Positions 3,785-54,169 of a stretch of DNA of 64,000 bases are shown one piece after another. The notes under the pieces were generated by a model. The model was not told the origin of the DNA and ran no database searches. It saw only the letters and a program-made list of their open reading frames with translations. How positions within the stretch are numbered: the stretch's first letter is position 1; each line of letters begins with the position of its first letter. Position numbers and translations under genes: made by a program. This stretch comes from Paenisporosarcina sp. FSL H8-0542 (GTDB taxonomy: Bacteria > Bacillota > Bacilli > Bacillales_A > Planococcaceae), in assembly GCF_038632915.1 (NCBI RefSeq), contig NZ_CP152050.1, forward strand, positions 2,883,001 through 2,947,000, read 5' to 3'.

Positions 3785-4423
3785 CTATTTTTGGCCGTAT
3801 GACTTGAATTTCTCCGCCATATGAGCCATTTCGTTATCGTCCAAAATTACTGGTTCCCCCACGGCCTTTGCTTTCAAATACACTTCGCAGCAAAATTCGA
3901 TTTCTTCCGCGATGGCGAATGCGGTAGCAATATTGTTCGCACCTGCCAATAGCCCGTGATTAGCCAGCAAGACAGCTTGTCGATCTTTCATCCCTTCGAA
4001 GGCATTGGTCGCAAGTTCTGATGTACCAAAACTCGCATACTCCGCACAGCGTACGTCTTTTCCTGCATAAGCAACCAAATATGACACTGCTGGCAAATTC
4101 CATCTTAGTGATGCAAGCACGGTGGCGTGCATGGAATGAGTATGGACGATTGCATCTATGTCTGTACGTTGTTGATAGAAAATCGCGTGCATCGGGAATT
4201 CGCTTGATGGCTTTTTATCGCCAGCGATGACTTCCCCTTGCAGATTACATACGACTACATCTTCAGCTGTCATGATGTCGTAATCGATGCCGCTTGGACT
4301 GATGATCATATGGCCGGATTCACGGTCGAAGATGGAAATATTGCCCCCCGTCCCTTTGGTTAGGCCTCGTGTTCTCAATAACTTACAATAATCGACAATT
4401 TCATTGCGTTCTTTCATAAACAT
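3785..4423 (-). CDS. Class II (zinc) aldolase, FucA-like, in an mtnK-mtnA operon
   Basis: 212 residues from the ATG at 4423, which has GGAGG 8 bases upstream; longer in-frame starts lack this. It is a class II aldolase/adducin fold: GTGGNIS near residue 31, the acidic SSEFPMH motif with the likely catalytic Glu, zinc ligands in HTHSMH, and a third His in ANHGLL. The pattern H.H..H.T resembles fuculose-1-phosphate aldolase more than MtnB dehydratase. It lies 37 bases after mtnA. Likely role (inference): cleaving 5-deoxyribulose-1-phosphate or 5-methylthioribulose-1-phosphate to dihydroxyacetone phosphate and an aldehyde. MtnB dehydratase is the alternative, but mtnW/X/E/D are not seen nearby. 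Confidence 0.8.
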   Translation of the reverse strand: MFMKERNEIVDYCKLLRTRGLTKGTGGNISIFDRESGHMIISPSGIDYDIMTAEDVVVCNLQGEVIAGDKKPSSEFPMHAIFYQQRTDIDAIVHTHSMHATVLASLRWNLPAVSYLVAYAGKDVRCAEYASFGTSELATNAFEGMKDRQAVLLANHGLLAGANNIATAFAIAEEIEFCCEVYLKAKAVGEPVILDDNEMAHMAEKFKSYGQK

Positions 4424-4460
4424 AGGTTGTTCCTCCATTCATGGTGTATATCTACTATGT

Positions 4461-5477
4461 TTAGCGAAATAGTTTTTTCAGGTTTTCTTCGTAAGGTGCA
4501 CGAACAATTCCTTTTTCAGTGACTATGGCCGTGATATGTTCGTGTGGTGTGACGTCGAATGCGGGGTTGTACACATTAACATCTGCCGGTGCCGTCAGTC
4601 TTCCAAAGCCTTCGATGACTTCGGATTTATGTCTTTCCTCAATCGGAATTTGCGTGCCCGTTGGTGTATTTAGGTCAATGGTTGGTGTTGGTGCTGCCAC
4701 GTAAAACGGAATGTTGTAGTGTTTTGCTAAAATGGACACTCCAAGCGTACCGATTTTATTGGCCGTATCACCGTTTGCAGCGACGCGGTCGCAACCGACG
4801 ATAACAGCTTGAACTTTGCCTTGGGACATGACCATAGCAGCCATATTATCCGTAATGACCGTTACATCGATTCCCGCTCTGCTCAATTCCAGTGCGGTCA
4901 ATGTAGATCCTTGTAGACGAGGGCGTGTTTCGTCAGCGTACACTTTGAAATCCCAGCCTTTTTCTTTTGCAAGATACATGGGTGCAGTAGCTGTTCCGTA
5001 TTTCGAAGTGGCTAGAGCGCCAGCGTTACAATGTGTCAGGATGCCCATGCCGTCAGTTAGTAACGTTAATAGGTTTTCGCCGATGGTGCGGTTGATTTCT
5101 TCATCTTCTTTATGAATGGCTTTTGCTTCCGCTAATAAAGCTTCTTTATAAATAGCGTCCGGCGCTTTGACTGCTGTCATGCGGTCAAGAGCCCAGAACA
5201 AGTTGACTGCAGTCGGTCTGGACGTAGCCAAATACTCTGCGCTTTTCTGTACTACTTTCACCAAATCGGTTTCGGAATTGCGAACAGCCAAGTAAACGCC
5301 GTATGCTGCGGCAACGCCAATCGCTGGGGCACCGCGGACTTTCATCGTGACGATGGCATCCCAGACGCTTTCAACAGTTGTGAATTCTTCGTAGACAATG
5401 TCGTTAGGAAGCTTGGTTTGGTCAAGCAGGACGAGTGCATCGTTTTTCCATTCTATCGGGTTCAGTGCTTCAGTCAT
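4461..5477 (-). CDS. mtnA: S-methyl-5-thioribose-1-phosphate isomerase
   Basis: 338 residues; converts 5-methylthioribose-1-phosphate (and in related pathways 5-deoxyribose-1-phosphate) to the ribulose form. Family signatures are clear: [14 protein letters not shown] near residue 48, [10 protein letters not shown] carrying the catalytic Cys near 158, and [17 protein letters not shown] carrying the catalytic Asp near 238. ATG 5477 has AGGAGG 7 bases upstream. The start overlaps the stop of mtnK by four bases (ATGA), so the two are translationally coupled. The length matches the family. Only the aldehyde-alkyl chain of the physiological substrate is uncertain. Confidence 0.95.
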
Positions 5478-6700
5478 TTGTTTTCCTCCTGTAGTGCGTT
5501 TTGTAGCGCTGTTAAGTATTGTCCGCCTGTTTGAAATTCTGACGGGTTAAGGATTAGTTCCACTGCGACACGCAAGCAGAGTCTTTCTGCTTTCAGACGG
5601 TTTTCGATCGATTCGATGGTCGTGATGTCTTTCACTTTCGCCAGTCCAACGATGCGGCGTGCTAGTTCAAGACCTGCCATGCCAGCTGTGTCTTTCAGGA
5701 TATTTTGTAAGTAATGTTCTTTGAAATCTACGTTTTTAGCAACGAGGTCCGTTGCGTGGTCGTCCCAAGCAATGCGGAATTTCGTGTCGAATAAGTCCAT
5801 TACGTCGAATAATGTATTTTCAACCCACTCAGTGAATTCTTTGTTTTGGTATGCATCACCGCGAGCGAATGCAAAAATCAGGTTGGCCATGACGTTACCG
5901 ATATCGTAGCCCATAGGTCCGAAGAATGCGAACTCGGGATCGATGACTTTTGTGTCGTTCTGATCGATGAAAATCGAGCCCGTATGTAGGTCGCCATGAA
6001 TGAGTGATTGACTGTTGTTCATAAACTGGAACTTCAATTTCGCTACTTCCAAGTGAAGCGCTTCGTTTTCATAAAGGTGCGTCTGGACAAATTGTTCATT
6101 CCCCGGTGTCACTTCGTTGCGGTTAAAGTTGTTGTGGAACGGCTCTGTGAACACGAGGTCTTCCGAAATTTCACAAAGCTCTGGGTTCGTGAATTTTGCG
6201 ACCAGTTCTTTCTTATCTTTATGGTTCAGGACAACGTCACTTGTGCGCAACAATGTGTTCACGAGGAAGTCCGTGATATGTTCCGCGAAATGAGGGAACG
6301 TCTCGAAATTTGCCAGCGCTGTGCGCATGATTGTCAGATGCGACAAGTCCTCCATGACGCAACAGCTCATCGTTTCATCCAACAGATAAATTTCAGGAAC
6401 CAGTCCCGGTGCCAGCGTATGTTGCAGTTGAAGTGCTTCGGTCTCGATTTTGTTACGGCTAGTCGACAGGACGAATTCATCTGAAATGCGTGCAGTCGTG
6501 CCCGCTTGTTTGACGATGACCGATTCTTTCGTTTCCTCGTTGACGACGCGGTACACATAGTTCAAGTTGCCGTCACCAATTTCTTTGCAAGTAATCTGTT
6601 GTGCATTTTGGAATGACTCTATTTTGGCTTTCACATATTGAATGACGTCATCGGTATTCATCAGGAAGTATTGTTCAAAAGTATGCATAGGTGTTTGCAT
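5474..6700 (-). CDS. mtnK: S-methyl-5-thioribose kinase
   Basis: 408 residues from ATG 6700, preceded by AAAGGAG at 9 bases; the longer ATG at 6739 has no ribosome site. It phosphorylates 5-methylthioribose (possibly 5-deoxyribose) with ATP. It is an APH-like kinase: [13 protein letters not shown] nucleotide loop near residue 44, catalytic loop [12 protein letters not shown] near 233, and the metal-binding [15 protein letters not shown] near 254. First gene of the kinase-isomerase-aldolase operon. The ~80 bases between it and the repeat array upstream are too short for an S-box riboswitch, unlike B. subtilis mtnKA. Confidence 0.94.
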
Positions 6701-6734
6701 CTGCAACCGCTCCTTTGAAAATAGGTTTTTTTCT

Positions 6735-6743
6735 ATCATAGCA
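6735..6743 (-). promoter_or_regulatory. Candidate extended -10 promoter for the mtnK operon
   Basis: Minus strand reads TGCTATGAT, a TGn-extended -10 hexamer, about 20 bases upstream of the mtnK ribosome site. No good -35 box is seen. Prediction from sequence only. Confidence 0.4.
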
Positions 6744-6799
6744 AATTTCTTGTGAGAGTATTCTAGTTATTGAGAATTAGGTTGTATTTTCCCAACGGT

Positions 6800-6999
6800 T
6801 GGTGGGGGTTTTGGCGATTTCTAGTGGGGTTATTACTAATTCGCTCAGTGTTATAGCGAGTTGGCGGGGATATCTCGATTTCGTAGGTGGATATCGAGAA
6901 TTGGATGATGGATATCTATATTTCGCGGGTGGATATCTCCATTTCGTGCACATATATCTATAATTCATGTCTGTTTATCTAAAATTCACCTTTTACGTA
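6800..6999. repeat. Intergenic 21-bp periodic array, family A, copy 1
   Basis: On the plus strand six consecutive exact 21-base units run from about 6869 to 6994, each beginning GATATC, TATATC or TTTATC followed by a NNNATTTCG- or AATTC-like core. Two more degenerate units precede them. The last unit ends in ATCTAAAATTCACCTTTT then ACGTACAAT, the same terminus as in the arrays ending near 12809 and 39195. It lies just beyond the terminator of the subtilase at 7063. A short open frame on the minus strand through the repeats is a by-product of the 21-base period, not a gene. Confidence 0.85.
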
Positions 7000-7008
7000 C
7001 AATAAAAC

Positions 7009-10851: not shown

Positions 10852-11323
10852 TCTAGTTTCCTCCCTAATTGTGTTTCTTCTATTTCTGACAAATATTTTA
10901 GAAACGTGACAACCTTGTCGAATTAATTAACAATTTGAAATTTAACATATATTAAGAACCTTGAAAACCTTATTTTATTTACCATAATTACTAAAATGAT
11001 TACATTTTTTGTAATTTAGAGATTTTTAGATATATAGTTACTCATTCTTGAAACGTTTATAGGTTATATGAATCTATTAATTTTAATTGATAATAGGTCT
11101 TTTGGTTTTGAGAGTAATAACTTAGGTATTTCTTTTTACTCATTTTCATTAATTGGTGGGGATTCTATATTTTTGAAGTTGTTGAGGGAATATTGATTTA
11201 CCAAGGGTAGAGTGGGGTTCTTTATTTTTTACTATTAGAAACAATCACTGGAAACTAGATTAGTTTTCACGAATTCAATAATTATTATAGCCAATTCATG
11301 AGTAGGGGTAGCGAATTTGCGTG
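10852..11323. other. AT-rich upstream region of the subtilase
   Basis: No gene is visible. The stretch is very AT-rich and should contain the subtilase promoter, but no convincing -35/-10 pair was found. A short dyad GACAACCTTGTC lies at 10908-10919, 57 bases from the start codon. Confidence 0.5.
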
Positions 11324-12809
11324 GATATCTAGAATTCGCTGGTAGATATCGAGTATTCATAATGAGATATCTCGATTTCATATTTGGATATCTGCATTTC
11401 GACAGTCGTTATCTATAATTCGCGACTACTTACCTAAAATTCATCTTTTACGCACAATTCCTCAGACCTGTATTTGGTGGCTGACGGCTGGCGCCTGCCA
11501 CTTTTCTGTTAGTACCTCAAGGTGTCACTAACAGAAAAATTGCCAGTTAGGTGGTCAACTGGCACCACTAATATCGCATTTATTGTGATATCTAGAATTC
11601 GTGAGTGGATATCAAGAATTCCATGGAGGATATCTCGTTTTCGTGGATGGATATCTCGATTTCGCGCATCGATATCTTTGTGTCGATGGTCGTTATCTAT
11701 AATTCGCGACTACTTATCTAAAATTCATCTTTTACGCACAATTCATTCAGACCTGTATTTGGTGGCTGACGGCTGGCGCCTGCCACTTTTCTGTTAGTAC
11801 CTCAAGGTGTCACTAACAGAAAAATTGCCAGTTGGGTTGTCAACTGGCACCACTAATATCGCATTTATTGTGATATCTGGAATTCGTGAGTGGTTATCAA
11901 AAATTCAATCCCGGATATCTCGATTTCGCGCATGGATACCTTGTGTCGACAGTCGTTATCTATAATTCGCGACTACTTATCTAAAATTCATCTTTTACGC
12001 ACAATACCCTCAGATCTGTATTTGGTGGCTGGTGGCTGATGGCTGGCGCCTGCCACTTTTCTGTTAGTACTTCAAGGTGTCACTAACAGAAAAATTGCCA
12101 GTTGGGCGATCAACTGGCACCACTAATAGCGCATTTATTGTGATATCTGGAATTCGTGAGTGGATATCAAGAATTCCATGTCGGATATCTCGATTTCGCG
12201 CATGGATATCTTTGTGTCGATAGTCGTTATCTATAATTCGCGACTACTTATCTAAAATTCATCTTTTACGCACAATTCATTCAGACCTGTATTTGGTGGC
12301 TGACGGCTGGCGCCTGCCACTTTTCTGTTAGTACCTCAAGGTGTCACTAACAGAAAAATTGCCAGTTGGGTTGTCAACTGGCACCACTAATATCGCATTT
12401 ATTGTGATATCTGGAATTCGTGAGTGGATATCAAGATTTCAATGGAGGATATCTCGATTTCGTGGATGAATATCTTTGTGTCGATAGTCGTTATCTATAA
12501 TTCGCGACTACTTATCTAAAATTCATCTTTTACGCACAATTCCCTCAGACCTGTATTTGGTGGCTGACGGCTGGCGCCTGCCACTTTTCTGTTAGTACCT
12601 CAAGGTGTCACTAATAGAAAAATTGCCAGTTGGGTGGTCAACTGGCACTACTAATAACGCATTTACTGTGATATCTGGAATTCGTGAGTGGATATCAACA
12701 ATTCAATGCAGGATATCTCGATTTCATATTTGGATATCTTCATTTCGACAGTCGTTATCTGTAATTCGCGACTACTTATCTAAAATTCATCTTTAACGCA
12801 CAATTCATT
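11324..12809. repeat. Compound tandem array: 21-bp units alternating with a ~138-bp hairpin segment, about five copies
   Basis: The marker CAGACCTGTATTTGGTGGCTG (CAGATCTG in one copy) recurs at about 11463, 11748, 12011, 12282 and 12546, giving periods of 285, 263, 271 and 264. Each period is six or seven 21-base units (GATATC..GAATTC/ATTTCG type) plus about 138 bases of conserved sequence. The 22-base difference between the first two periods is one extra 21-mer; the 271 period has a 7-8 base insertion in the GGTGGCT run. The conserved part holds a hairpin with arms TTTTCTGTTAGT / ACTAACAGAAAA (first copy 11502-11538) and a second with arms GCCAGTTG / CAACTGGC in most copies. No coding capacity is conserved. 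Confidence 0.95.
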
Positions 12810-12816
12810 CGCAAAC

Positions 12817-12854
12817 AAAAATGACCTCTTCCATCGTTAGGAAGAGGTCATTTT
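12817..12854 (-). terminator. Terminator of the HlyD-like gene
   Basis: Arms AAAATGACCTCTTCC / GGAAGAGGTCATTTT around a 7-base loop, directly after the stop codon at 12857. Nearly identical to the hairpin at 3584-3617. Confidence 0.85.
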
Positions 12855-12856
12855 AT

Positions 12857-14149
12857 CTATCGTACTAAGTATTTCAGGTAGTTTTTCCATCCGAATGCTT
12901 TTACTGATTCCCATGAAGGTGAATCCATTGGCATTGGGTAGAAGATAGCAGGTGCATAACGGTAGTCGTTGATTTGTGGTTCGTAAACAACCACTGAACC
13001 AGCTTTAAGTCCTTCGCCGATGACTGAGCGTGTTTTCAAGTCAAATGCGATGTTGACCGGTGTTTTTACTGCGTAGCCGTATTTATTAACGACATGTGCA
13101 CTTGCTGACCCAGCGAAGCGATTGTCTAACCAAGCGGTCTGAACAGAGACAGCTTTTTGTGCTTCGTTTATTAATACCATAGCGTTTGTCTTGTTACCGA
13201 AAGGCAAGTCTGTGATTGGTTCTTTCGGTTGAATACGAACTTCATAGTATGCTAGCGGGTTCTTATGGTCTTTTGGATCGAGCGCTTTATAGGCAGTCAG
13301 GAATTCGGAGTCTTTAGCAGGAACTTGGGAAACTTCTGTTACCGTTCCTTCTATTGATTGATCGATTCCATCCGCTTGTAGGCGAACACGGTCGTTTACT
13401 TTCACGTCCTGCCATTGTTCATCTGTTGCATACGTAACAATGATTTTTTCGATGCTGTAAATTTCGATTGCCAAGCGGTCATTGTTGTCTCGAATCGCGG
13501 ATACTACGCCTTCGACCGGACTAAGGATGGCAGCCGCTCCCTTTTGAGCAAGCTGTGCATCAACGACTTGCAATTGCTGATTGACTTCAGATAGTTTTTG
13601 TTCCGCTTCAGCAATCGCATGTGCGAAAGCACCATCTTGAGAAACGTCCACGCCGAAATCTACATTTACATCAATATTAACCATTTTATCATCGGTGTTT
13701 TCAGTGACGTTGTCTGTCGCGTTGTCTGTCGAATTACTTGAGCTCTGCGCGGTCGCGCGGTCAGATTGTAAGGACTTTATTGTTGCGTTGGTTTCAGTCA
13801 CTTGACGTTCAAGTGCTTCCTTTTCCGCTTCCCATACTTCACGTTGCTCGTCAGCCGTTGATGTGTTAAGCGTAGCGAGTTCGTCACCTACTTTTACTAC
13901 AGCACCTTCTTTGACCAACCAGTCTTGAATCGTATCTTCACTTTCCACGTAAACCGTTGTCGTGTCGAGCGGTGCAACAAGTGATTCTTTCGGTAAGGAT
14001 TGTACAAAGTCCCCTGTTGCGAGACGTTCGTATTCATTTACGTACACATCTTTAGAAATTACGCTTTTTTCGCTGAACAAGAGAATCGCGTTGGCTGCAA
14101 TGAACGTAGAAACTGCAATGGATATACCAATCGTTAACCATTTATTCAT
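12857..14149 (-). CDS. HlyD/MFP-type membrane fusion protein (YknX-like)
   Basis: 430 residues: one N-terminal membrane segment (residues 5-25), then a biotinyl-lipoyl-like half (SLVAPLDTTTVYVESED..VVKVGDELATL), a long coiled-coil hairpin around 100-200 (EVWEAEKEALERQV, EAEQKLSEVNQQL) and a second half-lipoyl/beta-barrel region (AILSPVEGVVSAI). Such proteins are extracytoplasmic adaptors for ABC exporters. The start overlaps the upstream Yip1-like gene by four bases (ATGA), with AAGGGGGTG as ribosome site. No ABC ATPase or permease is adjacent, so the partner is unknown. The pairing resembles YknW-YknX of B. subtilis, which act with YknYZ; that link is inference. Confidence 0.8.
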   Translation of the reverse strand: MNKWLTIGISIAVSTFIAANAILLFSEKSVISKDVYVNEYERLATGDFVQSLPKESLVAPLDTTTVYVESEDTIQDWLVKEGAVVKVGDELATLNTSTADEQREVWEAEKEALERQVTETNATIKSLQSDRATAQSSSNSTDNATDNVTENTDDKMVNIDVNVDFGVDVSQDGAFAHAIAEAEQKLSEVNQQLQVVDAQLAQKGAAAILSPVEGVVSAIRDNNDRLAIEIYSIEKIIVTYATDEQWQDVKVNDRVRLQADGIDQSIEGTVTEVSQVPAKDSEFLTAYKALDPKDHKNPLAYYEVRIQPKEPITDLPFGNKTNAMVLINEAQKAVSVQTAWLDNRFAGSASAHVVNKYGYAVKTPVNIAFDLKTRSVIGEGLKAGSVVVYEPQINDYRYAPAIFYPMPMDSPSWESVKAFGWKNYLKYLVR

Positions 14150-22031: not shown

Positions 22032-22455
22032 TTTCTATATGTCTAGTTCTGCTGGCCAGACAGTACCTCCGTTTCACTGTCTCATTCGAAAACAGGTTTT
22101 CGAGTCGGCAGTTCCAACGTCGGAGTCGGTCTATCTTGGCCTACTACACTTTTCTTATGTCCAGCTTCAAGCACCAGCTCACACCTAAGCTTGGGCCCAC
22201 AGGATGTGGGTCATGAAGGCGTTCGGACACGATGTCCGGATCTTAGCCTCCCCTCCCAAATACATGCGAAAGCGGGCTTTCGCTTCGTGCCTTCCAGCGC
22301 CGGTGTTGAGCTAGAGTGATGCTTTCCGCTTTTCTATATGTCTAGTTCCGCAGGCCAGACCGCACCTCCGTTTCACTGTCTCGTTCGAAAACAGGTTTTC
22401 GAGTCGGCAGTTCCAACGTCGGAGTCGGTCTATCTTGGCCTACTACACTTTTCTA
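22032..22455. repeat. Direct repeat of 125 bp with a divergent hairpin-rich spacer
   Basis: 22032-22156 and 22331-22455 are two 125-base copies differing at only a handful of positions. Each carries CGAAAACAGGTTTTCG, a small hairpin, and ends CTACTACACTTTTCT. The spacer contains GCGAAAGCGGGCTTTCGC and a GGACA..TGTCC dyad, and a segment GTCCAGCTTCAAGCACCAGCT that recurs inverted near 25.5 kb. This resembles the GTCTAG-CTCCAGCGCC intergenic repeats I associate with Bacillales genomes. No coding. Confidence 0.85.
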
Positions 22456-29026: not shown

Positions 29027-29088
29027 GGTGGAATATATGATGATAGAGTAAAGAATATGAATTACAGAGAGCATTAGAATTTATCTGG

Positions 29089-29511
29089 ATTTAATGCGAG
29101 TAAATCTAGATTTCAAATGGGTTTCTTCATATCGTACGTCGAGATCTCTTATCAGCATCGCAACGGAAACAAAACCATTTTACACTTCTATGGATATTTT
29201 TTGGAAGTAACTGGGCGAACGGGAATAAAGTACTCGCGAGAGGGATTAAACGTATCCTTAATAGGAACAAATCTTGAAAGGGAATAAAAATTCCCTCCCG
29301 TTAATATTGCCACACTTCTAACAGGAGTAAAGCGTAAACAAACCAACTTGCCCCCTCCCACTTCATTCGGAGGGGAATTACTGTTATGGATTAATATAAA
29401 CAAAGTGAGCTTCCCGAATAGGAACAAATAAAAAAGAAATGGCATACACTAAATATCCCCATACCCCCTCTTTCCAAAACTGAGTATTAACGGGAATAAA
29501 ATTTTCCACAA
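29089..29511. repeat. Mixed 21-bp arrays: family A-like then family B, copy 2
   Basis: About 29089-29160 holds three A-like 21-mers (ATTTATCTGGATTT.., GTAAATCTAGATTT..). From 29218 on, B-type units GGGAATAAAG, GGGATTAAAC, AGGAACAAA, GGGAATAAAA, AGGAGTAAAG appear, two of them exact 21-mers and the rest decayed. The flank AAACAAACCAACTTGCCCCC near 29350 matches the one at 15.8 kb. No gene is seen in 29027-29567. The array abuts the murA terminator. Confidence 0.75.
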
Positions 29512-31476: not shown

Positions 31477-31755
31477 GGTGATTGCTCCTTTTTGTATGAA
31501 AAGTGGTCGAATTAAGTAAGGAAAACACTTTTGTTAAGATGTTGTCTGGCAGCATACGTACGAATGTGAAAAATTAAGTTAATAAACTTATCACGTTACG
31601 AATTGTGTTGAAAAATGAAATTGGAGATTGAAAACTCATTTCCAGAAATACATTCATTACATTCAGATATAACATTGCGCATTGTAAATAAACAACAGTG
31701 AATCCTCTATATCGATCTGTGAAATAGAGAGACCCCCACCTATCAAATAAAAAAA
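31477..31755. other. Intergenic stretch with no feature seen
   Basis: AT-rich sequence between the DUF1146 gene and the atp terminator. No open frame, hairpin or repeat array worth calling. Confidence 0.5.
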
Positions 31756-39046: not shown

Positions 39047-39195
39047 GTTATCTCGATGTTTATCTCGTATTCGAAGAAGGTTATCTGCATTTTGTGTGGT
39101 GATATCTTCAATTCGAGTAACGTTATCTAGATTTCACCTAAGTTTATCTAGAATTCGGACAACTATATCTAAAATTCACGTTTTCTAATACAATT
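39047..39195. repeat. Intergenic 21-bp periodic array, family A, copy 3
   Basis: Six exact 21-base units beginning TTTATC, GTTATC, GATATC, GTTATC, TTTATC, TATATC, each with a T/A-rich ATTTCG-like centre. It ends ATCTAAAATTCACGTTTT..ACAAT like the other family-A arrays, and abuts the hairpin after mnaA. No gene in 38776-39249. Confidence 0.85.
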
Positions 39196-39214
39196 CCCTA
39201 ACAATGTCATAGTG

Positions 39215-45437: not shown

Positions 45438-45542
45438 TTCAGTCCCTCATTTCTATTCATATTCGCTTTTATCTTACCATTTTTACTAAGAAAAGCGCAA
45501 AGTGCCTTTCTAGCCATTCTTTGATTTGGGTTAACTTGAATT

Positions 45543-45624
45543 CGTAAGGGGATATGGAGGAATCAGAGGTGGTTTTCTTTATTTCATTGGCGCATATCTC
45601 CATTTCGAAGTTGTTTATCTAGAA
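45543..45624. repeat. Family-A array, copy 4
   Basis: Four 21-base units: GATATGGAGGAATC.., GTTTTCTTTATTTC.., CATATCTCCATTTC.., TTTATCTAGAAATG... A decayed version of the array near 12 kb. Confidence 0.65.
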
Positions 45625-45667
45625 ATGAAGCCTGCCGTCTCCTTAAGTTAACTTGCCAACGAGACTT

Positions 45668-45780
45668 GTTTGAGCGATAAATCATTCAATTTGATTGATA
45701 AATCTCCAGGTTGAGTGATAAATCTCTAGATTGATCAATAAACTAGCCAGTTTGAGCGTTAAATTTTTCACAAACGAAAA
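45668..45780. repeat. Intergenic 20-21-bp periodic array, family C
   Basis: Five consecutive units of 20-21 bases built on TTGAGYGATAAATC: TTTGAGCGATAAATC.., TTTGATTGATAAATC.., TTGAGTGATAAATC.., TTGATCAATAAACT.., TTTGAGCGTTAAAT... It lies beyond the 3' end of ywlE; the flank AGGAGCGTAGCGAAAACAAA near 45840 resembles that of family B at 15.78 kb. Confidence 0.75.
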
Positions 45781-53988: not shown

Positions 53989-54169
53989 CTTAAATCTCCT
54001 CTCGCCCTGAACCATCTGGAACAGAGTGGGTTATTTAACTGTCACCTTACACGACCCGTTCAGTTCAGCCGTATATGTCACAGAGTATGGTAAATCTACC
54101 GAACTAAATTATAGCAAAAAGGACTTACGAAATCAACCCTTTTGTTTAAATAAGGAACTACAATTTATC

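Follow-up and report, generated by a model that had tools for sequence, protein, structure and literature searches.

Dispersed six-unit arrays of 21-bp direct repeats in Paenisporosarcina and Lysinibacillus: a putative chromosomal protein-binding platform with a locally amplified copy

Architecture of the compound array

The window (the whole stretch of 64,000 nucleotides that was analysed, positions 2883001-2947000 of the 3.63-Mb single-contig genome of Paenisporosarcina sp. FSL H8-0542, here G000) contains a compound array of 21-bp direct repeats behind an HlyD-type gene (12857-14149; Table 1). We scanned four window proteins beside arrays against Pfam, and they were assigned to HlyD_3 (the gene just named), Peptidase_S8, APH, and Epimerase_2. 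TRF reported the compound array at 11366-12807, with a period of 264 bp, 5.3 copies, and a score of 1979, together with 21-bp sub-arrays, which confirms the nested periods of 21 bp and about 265-285 bp proposed in the initial annotation of this DNA. Read on the minus strand, the order is a start signature, six 21-bp units, a hairpin segment ending in the next start signature, six further units, and so on. There are thus six blocks of 21-mers around five hairpin segments (137-145 bp), and not five copies of a macro-unit as first described; the count of six or seven 21-mers per unit was correct, with six units in five of the blocks (one of them with a 1-bp deletion) and seven in the remaining one. 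Successive block starts are separated by 264, 264, 271, 263, and 284 bp, a macro-period of 263-284 bp. The extent originally given (11324-12809) holds at the start, where the signature lies, but not at the distal end, which as judged by eye trails into degenerate units to about position 11255.

Table 1. Array features and other module copies in the window (window coordinates)
Feature	Position	Strand	Remarks
Start signature (leader) of array, GAATTGTGCGTTAAAGAT	12789..12809	-	recognisable in 7 of 10 aligned G000 arrays and in 8 of 8 printed G008 copies
Array block 1, six 21-bp units	12663..12788	-
Hairpin segment 1, three hairpins then block 2 leader	12525..12662	-
Array block 2, six units	12399..12524	-
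Hairpin segment 2	12261..12398	-	folded as DNA: z -5.2, no equally stable fold in 200 shuffles
Array block 3, six units	12135..12260	-
Hairpin segment 3, 7-bp insertion	11990..12134	-
Array block 4, six units, 1-bp deletion	11865..11989	-
Hairpin segment 4	11727..11864	-
Array block 5, seven units	11580..11726	-
Hairpin segment 5	11443..11579	-
Array block 6, six units	11317..11442	-
Degenerate distal units	11255..11316	-	end approximate, judged by eye
Terminator-like hairpin behind upstream HlyD-type gene, just ahead of array	12818..12855	-	by eye; gene is Pfam HlyD_3
Single module copy, start signature and six units	6862..7008	-
Single module copy	39052..39198	-
Partial module copy	45528..45626	-
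Diverged module copy, opposite orientation, retains AATTGTG start signature	31601..31738	+
Weak partial module copy	29077..29149	-	E 2e-4 in genome search

The motif GATATC occurs 22 times in 11324-12809, compared with 0.64 occurrences predicted from its density elsewhere in the window. For the core GAAWTNNNGATA we counted 43 matches in the window, where 1.9 were expected (none of 100 shuffles reached 43), and 40 of them fall inside arrays; the three outside, all on the strand opposite to that of the main array, are not an enrichment over the 1.9 expected for the whole window. The two strong hairpins noticed at the outset are present in the hairpin segment, together with a third (GTGGC...GCCAC), and segment 2 has a strong fold on both strands (z about -5). 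The segments were also said to be better conserved than the 21-mers, and this is true of mean pairwise identity over all copies (95.7% for segments versus 87.3% for blocks), but hardly so against the inner blocks 2-5 (94.3%).

The genus was sampled by nine genomes (G000-G008), including a second strain of the same species (HGH0030, here G006, a separate draft assembly in five contigs) and another species (G008). An assembly artefact had been raised as a concern, and is contradicted by HGH0030, which has a similar array at the same place, with four blocks versus the six found here (a copy number that assembly of the draft could affect). Growth by unequal exchange at both scales, as suggested initially, is supported by this and other differences between the two strains, with the same caution about the draft: the copy at 6862-7008 has gained or lost one 21-mer in its degenerate distal part, and the array at 1942229-1942559 in G006 is doubled in one strain only. 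The counterpart of the window array in G004 is a single array without hairpins; together with the six versus four blocks in the two strains, this makes the macro-structure in the window look like a local amplification.

As the initial annotation held, the array shows no sign of coding, and the data agree with its not being a CRISPR. The 21-bp period keeps some frames open (for example, a 91-aa ORF at 11522-11797), but the varying macro-period lengths break the frame, and by eye the spacer positions lack a codon-like pattern. In a CRISPR array the repeats are long and nearly identical, and the unique spacers between them are similar in length; the repeats here have a degenerate core of 13 bp and spacers of 8 bp, and the units differ in sequence.

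A dispersed module and its relatives

Copies of the same module were found at 16 or more loci in G000. A typical copy opens with a start signature (AATTGTGTG.AAAA) and continues with six units of 21 bp, each consisting of a 13-bp core (GAAWTNNNGATAW, minus strand) and an 8-bp variable spacer, and copies are mostly intergenic, often shortly behind the 3′ end of a gene. Allowing at most two mismatches, the pattern GAAWTNNNGATA-N9-GAAWTNNNGATA matches G000 at 114 places and its reversed form at 3. A sequence model built from ten arrays gave at least 31 copies in G000, at least 27 in G006, at least 11 in G001, at least 13 in G004, and at least 16 in G008 (lower bounds, with 150 candidates scored per genome), one weak hit each in G005 and G007, and no copies among the 150 candidates in G002 or in G003. 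The module is dispensable: two of the nine genomes of the genus are without a copy and two have a single weak hit.

The ten G000 arrays, among them block 1 of the window array, align over 147 columns with one gap (compound, partial, and diverged arrays make up the remaining loci); each of the ten has six units, a seventh being degenerate or absent, and the start signature is recognisable in most (Table 1). Units match the same-numbered units at other loci better (12.87 versus 11.73 of 21 positions; none of 2000 permutations did as well), and the array loci look like copies of a standard module rather than independent expansions. Homology of same-numbered units between loci also fits past mobility.

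We compared core and spacer between G000 and G006 in eight single arrays, leaving out compound and other arrays: 7 of 624 core positions differ versus 18 of 383 spacer positions (Fisher P 6e-4), and the flanks of these arrays differ at 25 of 1504 positions. The core changes four times slower than the spacer, which indicates that it is under selection. Information content was computed in four genomes on units picked with the GAA/GATA skeleton imposed, and core filler positions average 0.79-1.61 bits compared with 0.27-0.44 bits in the spacer.

The core also appears to have shifted in concert. In G008, the eight full copies printed have six units and the same start signature, but most of their units have GAA-N5-GAAT instead of GATA. 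One of these copies has a PLD-like and an ABC_tran gene on its two sides, and orthologues of both genes flank arrays in G000, G001, and G004; this locus was probably inherited while its cores changed. The concerted shift suggests co-evolution with a trans-acting protein, and is also expected from gene conversion. Judged by a flanking orthologue shared with an array locus of G000, 6 of 7 array loci in G004, 2 of 9 in G001, and 1 of 12 in G008 correspond, so that the loci are often old.

Palindromes of the form GTGNCANTTG..CAANTGNCAC occur ahead of the start signature, in G000, G004, and G008 at compound arrays and in G000, G001, and G008 at single ones; the search was limited to this motif and missed the window's own hairpins, in which the outermost pair is open. 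Over six distinct genome/arm combinations, position 4 of the arms is C-G, T-A, or A-T and position 7 is G-C or T-A, with one A-C mismatch and one G-T at position 3. The co-varying arms support a conserved palindrome, which could be either a dimer site or a hairpin.

Pattern searches across the family covered 200 genomes in 19 genera. Allowing one mismatch, the generic pattern of three GAA-N5-GATA repeats was found 334 times, in 21 of the 200 genomes and 4 of the 19 genera (127 in the window's genus and 183 in genus g14), while its reversed control has 21 matches in 3 of the 200 genomes; outside the window's genus, 17 genomes account for 207 matches. Lysinibacillus sp. FJAT-14745, recognised by its array sequence, belongs to genus g14, as do the genomes G155 (a single-contig chromosome) and G169. 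In this genus the core is RAAWCGYYGATAR, unit numbers range from a few up to a chain of 86, and several array loci are common to two to four genomes on both flanks. Array-like matches, selected by the pattern itself, were also seen in Bacillus fonticola, Sporolactobacillus, Paraliobacillus, and an uncultured Planococcus; they may be of the same kind, and are only a lead. The triple pattern taken genome-wide gave at least 116 stretches; outside Bacillales, many of them are probably tandem or coding repeats unrelated to the module, so its breadth beyond the family is not established.

A plasmid or phage origin was considered and dropped: blastn with the window array found no match in 72,556 plasmid records or 50,697 phage records, and one Lysinibacillus array had no match in the plasmid records. 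Eight viral-contig stretches that matched the generic pattern were, by eye, unrelated repeats.

The largest array seen (L258 in G169, 3948-6934) has 127 core matches in about 3 kb, including the 86-unit chain, and part of this locus is N. At four loci of genus g14 (L228, L240, L243, and L258), the arrays alternate two unit types (GAAAGCTGGATAG and AAATCGTGGATAG, and variants); these arrays adjoin homologues of one gene in four genomes (a 316-aa ORF in L243 and L258).

Placement and replication orientation

Gene context was tabulated for 59 arrays at which a simple ORF finder called both neighbouring genes (two of 61 rows were dropped); arrays with fewer than four chained cores were left out except in the window, and many of the 59 are orthologues. 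Among them, 26 lie between convergent genes, 22 are in tandem and co-directional, 8 lie between divergent genes, and 3 are opposed to both genes. Where the upstream gene is co-directional (48 arrays), 28 arrays begin 30-110 bp behind that gene.

The Lysinibacillus-genus chromosome G155 has 85 matches to the two-unit pattern and none to the control, forming 30 clusters (some being a single two-unit match). With the origin placed at dnaA and the terminus assumed opposite, 28 of these 30 arrays point with the replication fork: 10 of 10 in convergent contexts, 4 of 4 in divergent, 11 of 11 in tandem, and 3 of 5 where both neighbours are opposed. ORFs in the same stretches are on the leading strand in 99 of 141 cases, a rate at which 28 or more of 30 would be expected with P 0.002; convergent and divergent contexts, which carry no neighbour bias, together give 14 of 14 with the fork (P ~1e-4, two-sided). 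Among the clusters listed, 15 of 16 in G138 and 7 of 7 in G165 agree with the fork, as do the array regions of Bacillus fonticola (first gene dnaA) at 0.94 Mb (+) and 2.67 Mb (-).

G000 is different. Here 12 of 16 loci follow the fork versus 63 of 79 nearby ORFs, which is no stronger than the gene bias, and of the eight loci in non-tandem contexts four do so. A first tally over four genomes, restricted to arrays with at least four chained cores, had given 30 of 31, but it dropped weaker G000 loci; three of the dropped loci ran against the fork, and all 16 loci give the figure above, so that the claim of polarity rests on Lysinibacillus. Replication polarity is therefore strong in Lysinibacillus and, in the Paenisporosarcina genome G000, not above gene bias. 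The two chromosome arms are unevenly populated: 24 versus 6 arrays in G155, and in G000 14 of 16 loci on the left arm, all within 2.71-3.21 Mb.

Candidate explanations and comparison with known systems

The option in the initial annotation that fits these data best is a binding platform. A constrained short core, fast-changing spacers of near-constant length, concerted core change, no RNA structure, and no plasmid or phage match all fit a platform for protein binding on double-stranded DNA, and we tentatively read the module as a putative chromosomal platform of this kind, locally amplified in the window, a reading to which we give slightly less than an even chance. A single sequence-specific DNA-binding protein would recognise each core; with about two helical turns between sites, the bound proteins could line up and oligomerise; the core would change in concert by co-evolving with that putative protein; and the palindromic hairpins ahead of the start signature would be an accessory, REP-like part. 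Since the Lysinibacillus arrays point with the fork whatever the neighbouring genes do, the platform is likely tied to something that moves with the fork, and most likely it is read by, or placed relative to, such a factor (as a part of organising the chromosome or handling the fork); regulating adjacent genes is the less likely role. A wider version of this proposal, which we regard as doubtful, is that Planococcaceae, and perhaps Bacillales more widely, have chromosomal landmarks made of iteron-like arrays, with a core co-evolving with a dedicated DNA-binding protein and a polarity fixed by the direction of replication, dozens of intergenic platforms being read in the right sense by a traveller on the fork.

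Several observations count against the platform, among them the G000 orientation at the level of gene bias and the genomes of the genus in which the search gave no copy. Two core filler positions in G000, at 0.29 and 0.41 bits, are nearly as unconstrained as the spacer. Unit spacing varies, with steps of 20, 29, and 40/41 bp besides 21 bp, and the G000 array at 2.715 Mb departs from the standard module in its blocks, which have five units and measure 113 bp. In G004, the locus corresponding to the compound array at 2.718 Mb is also compound, with four blocks, and its units are often without GAA. Lastly, 7 of 9 array loci in G001 and 11 of 12 in G008 have no counterpart in G000 by flanking gene.

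This last point also favours a rival that we consider rather unlikely, namely that the module is what remains of a mobile element, either non-autonomous or a solo transposon end, with units that were formerly transposase-binding sites. Past spread would have been by a transposase inserting relative to the fork, of the type of Tn7 TnsE, IS200/IS605, or another clamp binder; the orientation would be a fossil of insertion, and local tandem copies would have arisen later. The copies are indeed positional homologues, most with a common start, the palindromes ahead of some start signatures co-vary, and insertion oriented by replication is described for Tn7/TnsE, IS200/IS605, and several clamp-interacting IS families in a review (PMC5371812). 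Against it, we noticed by eye no terminal inverted repeats or target duplications in copies with flanks, and the only transposase family searched, Y1 (PF01797), is absent from G000, G006, and G169, the last with the largest array, while present in G001, G004, G138, G155, G160, and G165. The loci are moreover old, with most G004 loci common with G000 and one locus shared by G000, G001, G004, and G008; the cores are still constrained, and a core shift at a shared locus is hard to obtain by insertion. Fork orientation as such has two readings, use by a factor moving with the fork or insertion by a fork-directed transposase, and the shared loci with continuing constraint favour use over relic.

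The other explanations fare less well. A neutral minisatellite, in which functionless intergenic tandem repeats grow and shrink by slippage, would account for copy numbers that vary between strains at both scales and for the chain of 86 units at one Lysinibacillus-genus locus; it is already disfavoured, and we find it improbable, by the difference in rate between core and spacer, the recurrence of six units in all ten arrays aligned from G000 and all eight copies printed from G008, the skeleton recurring in other genera far beyond its reversed control, and the non-random orientation in G155. Little probability also goes to a strictly defined landmark for replication or segregation (a fork barrier, a signal for a translocase, or a cluster resembling a centromere): iteron-like direct repeats and the orientation in G155, and among the clusters listed in G138 and G165, are what it would predict, but the G155 arrays are spread along the arms and not near ori or ter, single cores are not enriched outside the window arrays as those of a translocase signal would be, and orientation in G000 does not exceed gene bias. 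We consider a structured non-coding RNA, or an array of RNAs from the minus strand, very improbable. The strong fold of hairpin segment 2, the tandem arrays co-directional with genes, and one of three single arrays tested that folds better than chance (z -3.8) speak for it; the other two single arrays have z 0.0 and -1.2, the ten aligned arrays have no predicted base pair in common, Rfam gave no match at gathering threshold in the array region, and the co-varying palindromes fit a DNA dimer site equally well. We accordingly rejected a structured ncRNA family, and the structured-RNA option first listed is unsupported for the 21-mers. DnaA-box titration was set aside too: some units contain TATCCAC, but on reading the sequences the filler differs in other genera.

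The constrained core, the recurrent six sites, the start signature, the concerted core change at a shared locus, and the replication orientation in Lysinibacillus are handles for testing. They point to a specific protein and a link with replication, or else to a mobile element that was guided by replication and left traces now under constraint, and either reading is directly testable in culturable soil bacteria.

Our search of the open-licence part of the literature found no description of these arrays, and we compared them with several known systems. REP/BIME/REPIN elements, associated with RAYT transposases, are intergenic and palindromic and have a species-specific consensus. The module shares the intergenic location, the species-specific consensus, and a palindromic part with co-varying arms, but its bulk consists of unstructured direct repeats, and the lack of a Y1 transposase in the window's species (G000 and G006) led us to reject a RAYT/REP origin. 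The ends of Tn7, Mu, and IS21 carry several direct transposase sites of about 20-22 bp, whereas no second end or terminal inverted repeats were noticed here. Plasmid iterons and type II/III partition centromeres build a protein platform from a small number of direct repeats of about 20-22 bp; the module differs from them in its many chromosomal copies and in having no match in plasmid records. Translocase signals of the KOPS/SRS type are single motifs, enriched and skewed, unlike the cores outside arrays in the 64 kb of the window.

The nearest known kind is the STAR elements (Staphylococcus aureus repeat), interspersed intergenic direct repeats with a start signature and locus-specific spacers, which number 1-6 motifs at the gapR locus, expand and contract, and are without a described function (PMC3532100). 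The module is likewise intergenic, with a start signature in most aligned G000 arrays, a conserved motif, and a variable spacer. Motif, spacing, and conservation of location differ: the STAR motif is 14 bp, T(G/A/T)TGTTG(G/T)GGCCC(C/A), with spacers of 40-44 bp and locations that differ between species (PMC3532100), compared with 21-bp units, a 13-bp core, 8-bp spacers, and several loci common between species for the module. The module may also have a hairpin ahead of the start signature, and its orientation follows replication in Lysinibacillus; the main text of the STAR paper makes no mention of orientation, leading strand, or origin of replication (PMC3532100).

Other repeats and RNAs were noticed as well. 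In the window, a 20-bp tandem repeat (TTGAGTGATAAATCTCCAGA, 45670-45742) lies near a partial module copy, at a place where this strain exceeds G006 by 41 bp, and Rfam matches were obtained for Bacillaceae-1 RNA (22196-22262) and the L31-Firmicutes leader (53996-54026). Three loci of G001 (L016, L024, and L042) have another 21-bp array family near the GATA arrays, with the core TTACAACGTGA (strand shown); it adjoins the hairpin GAGCTA(A/T)CGCTC, and has a like architecture with a different core.
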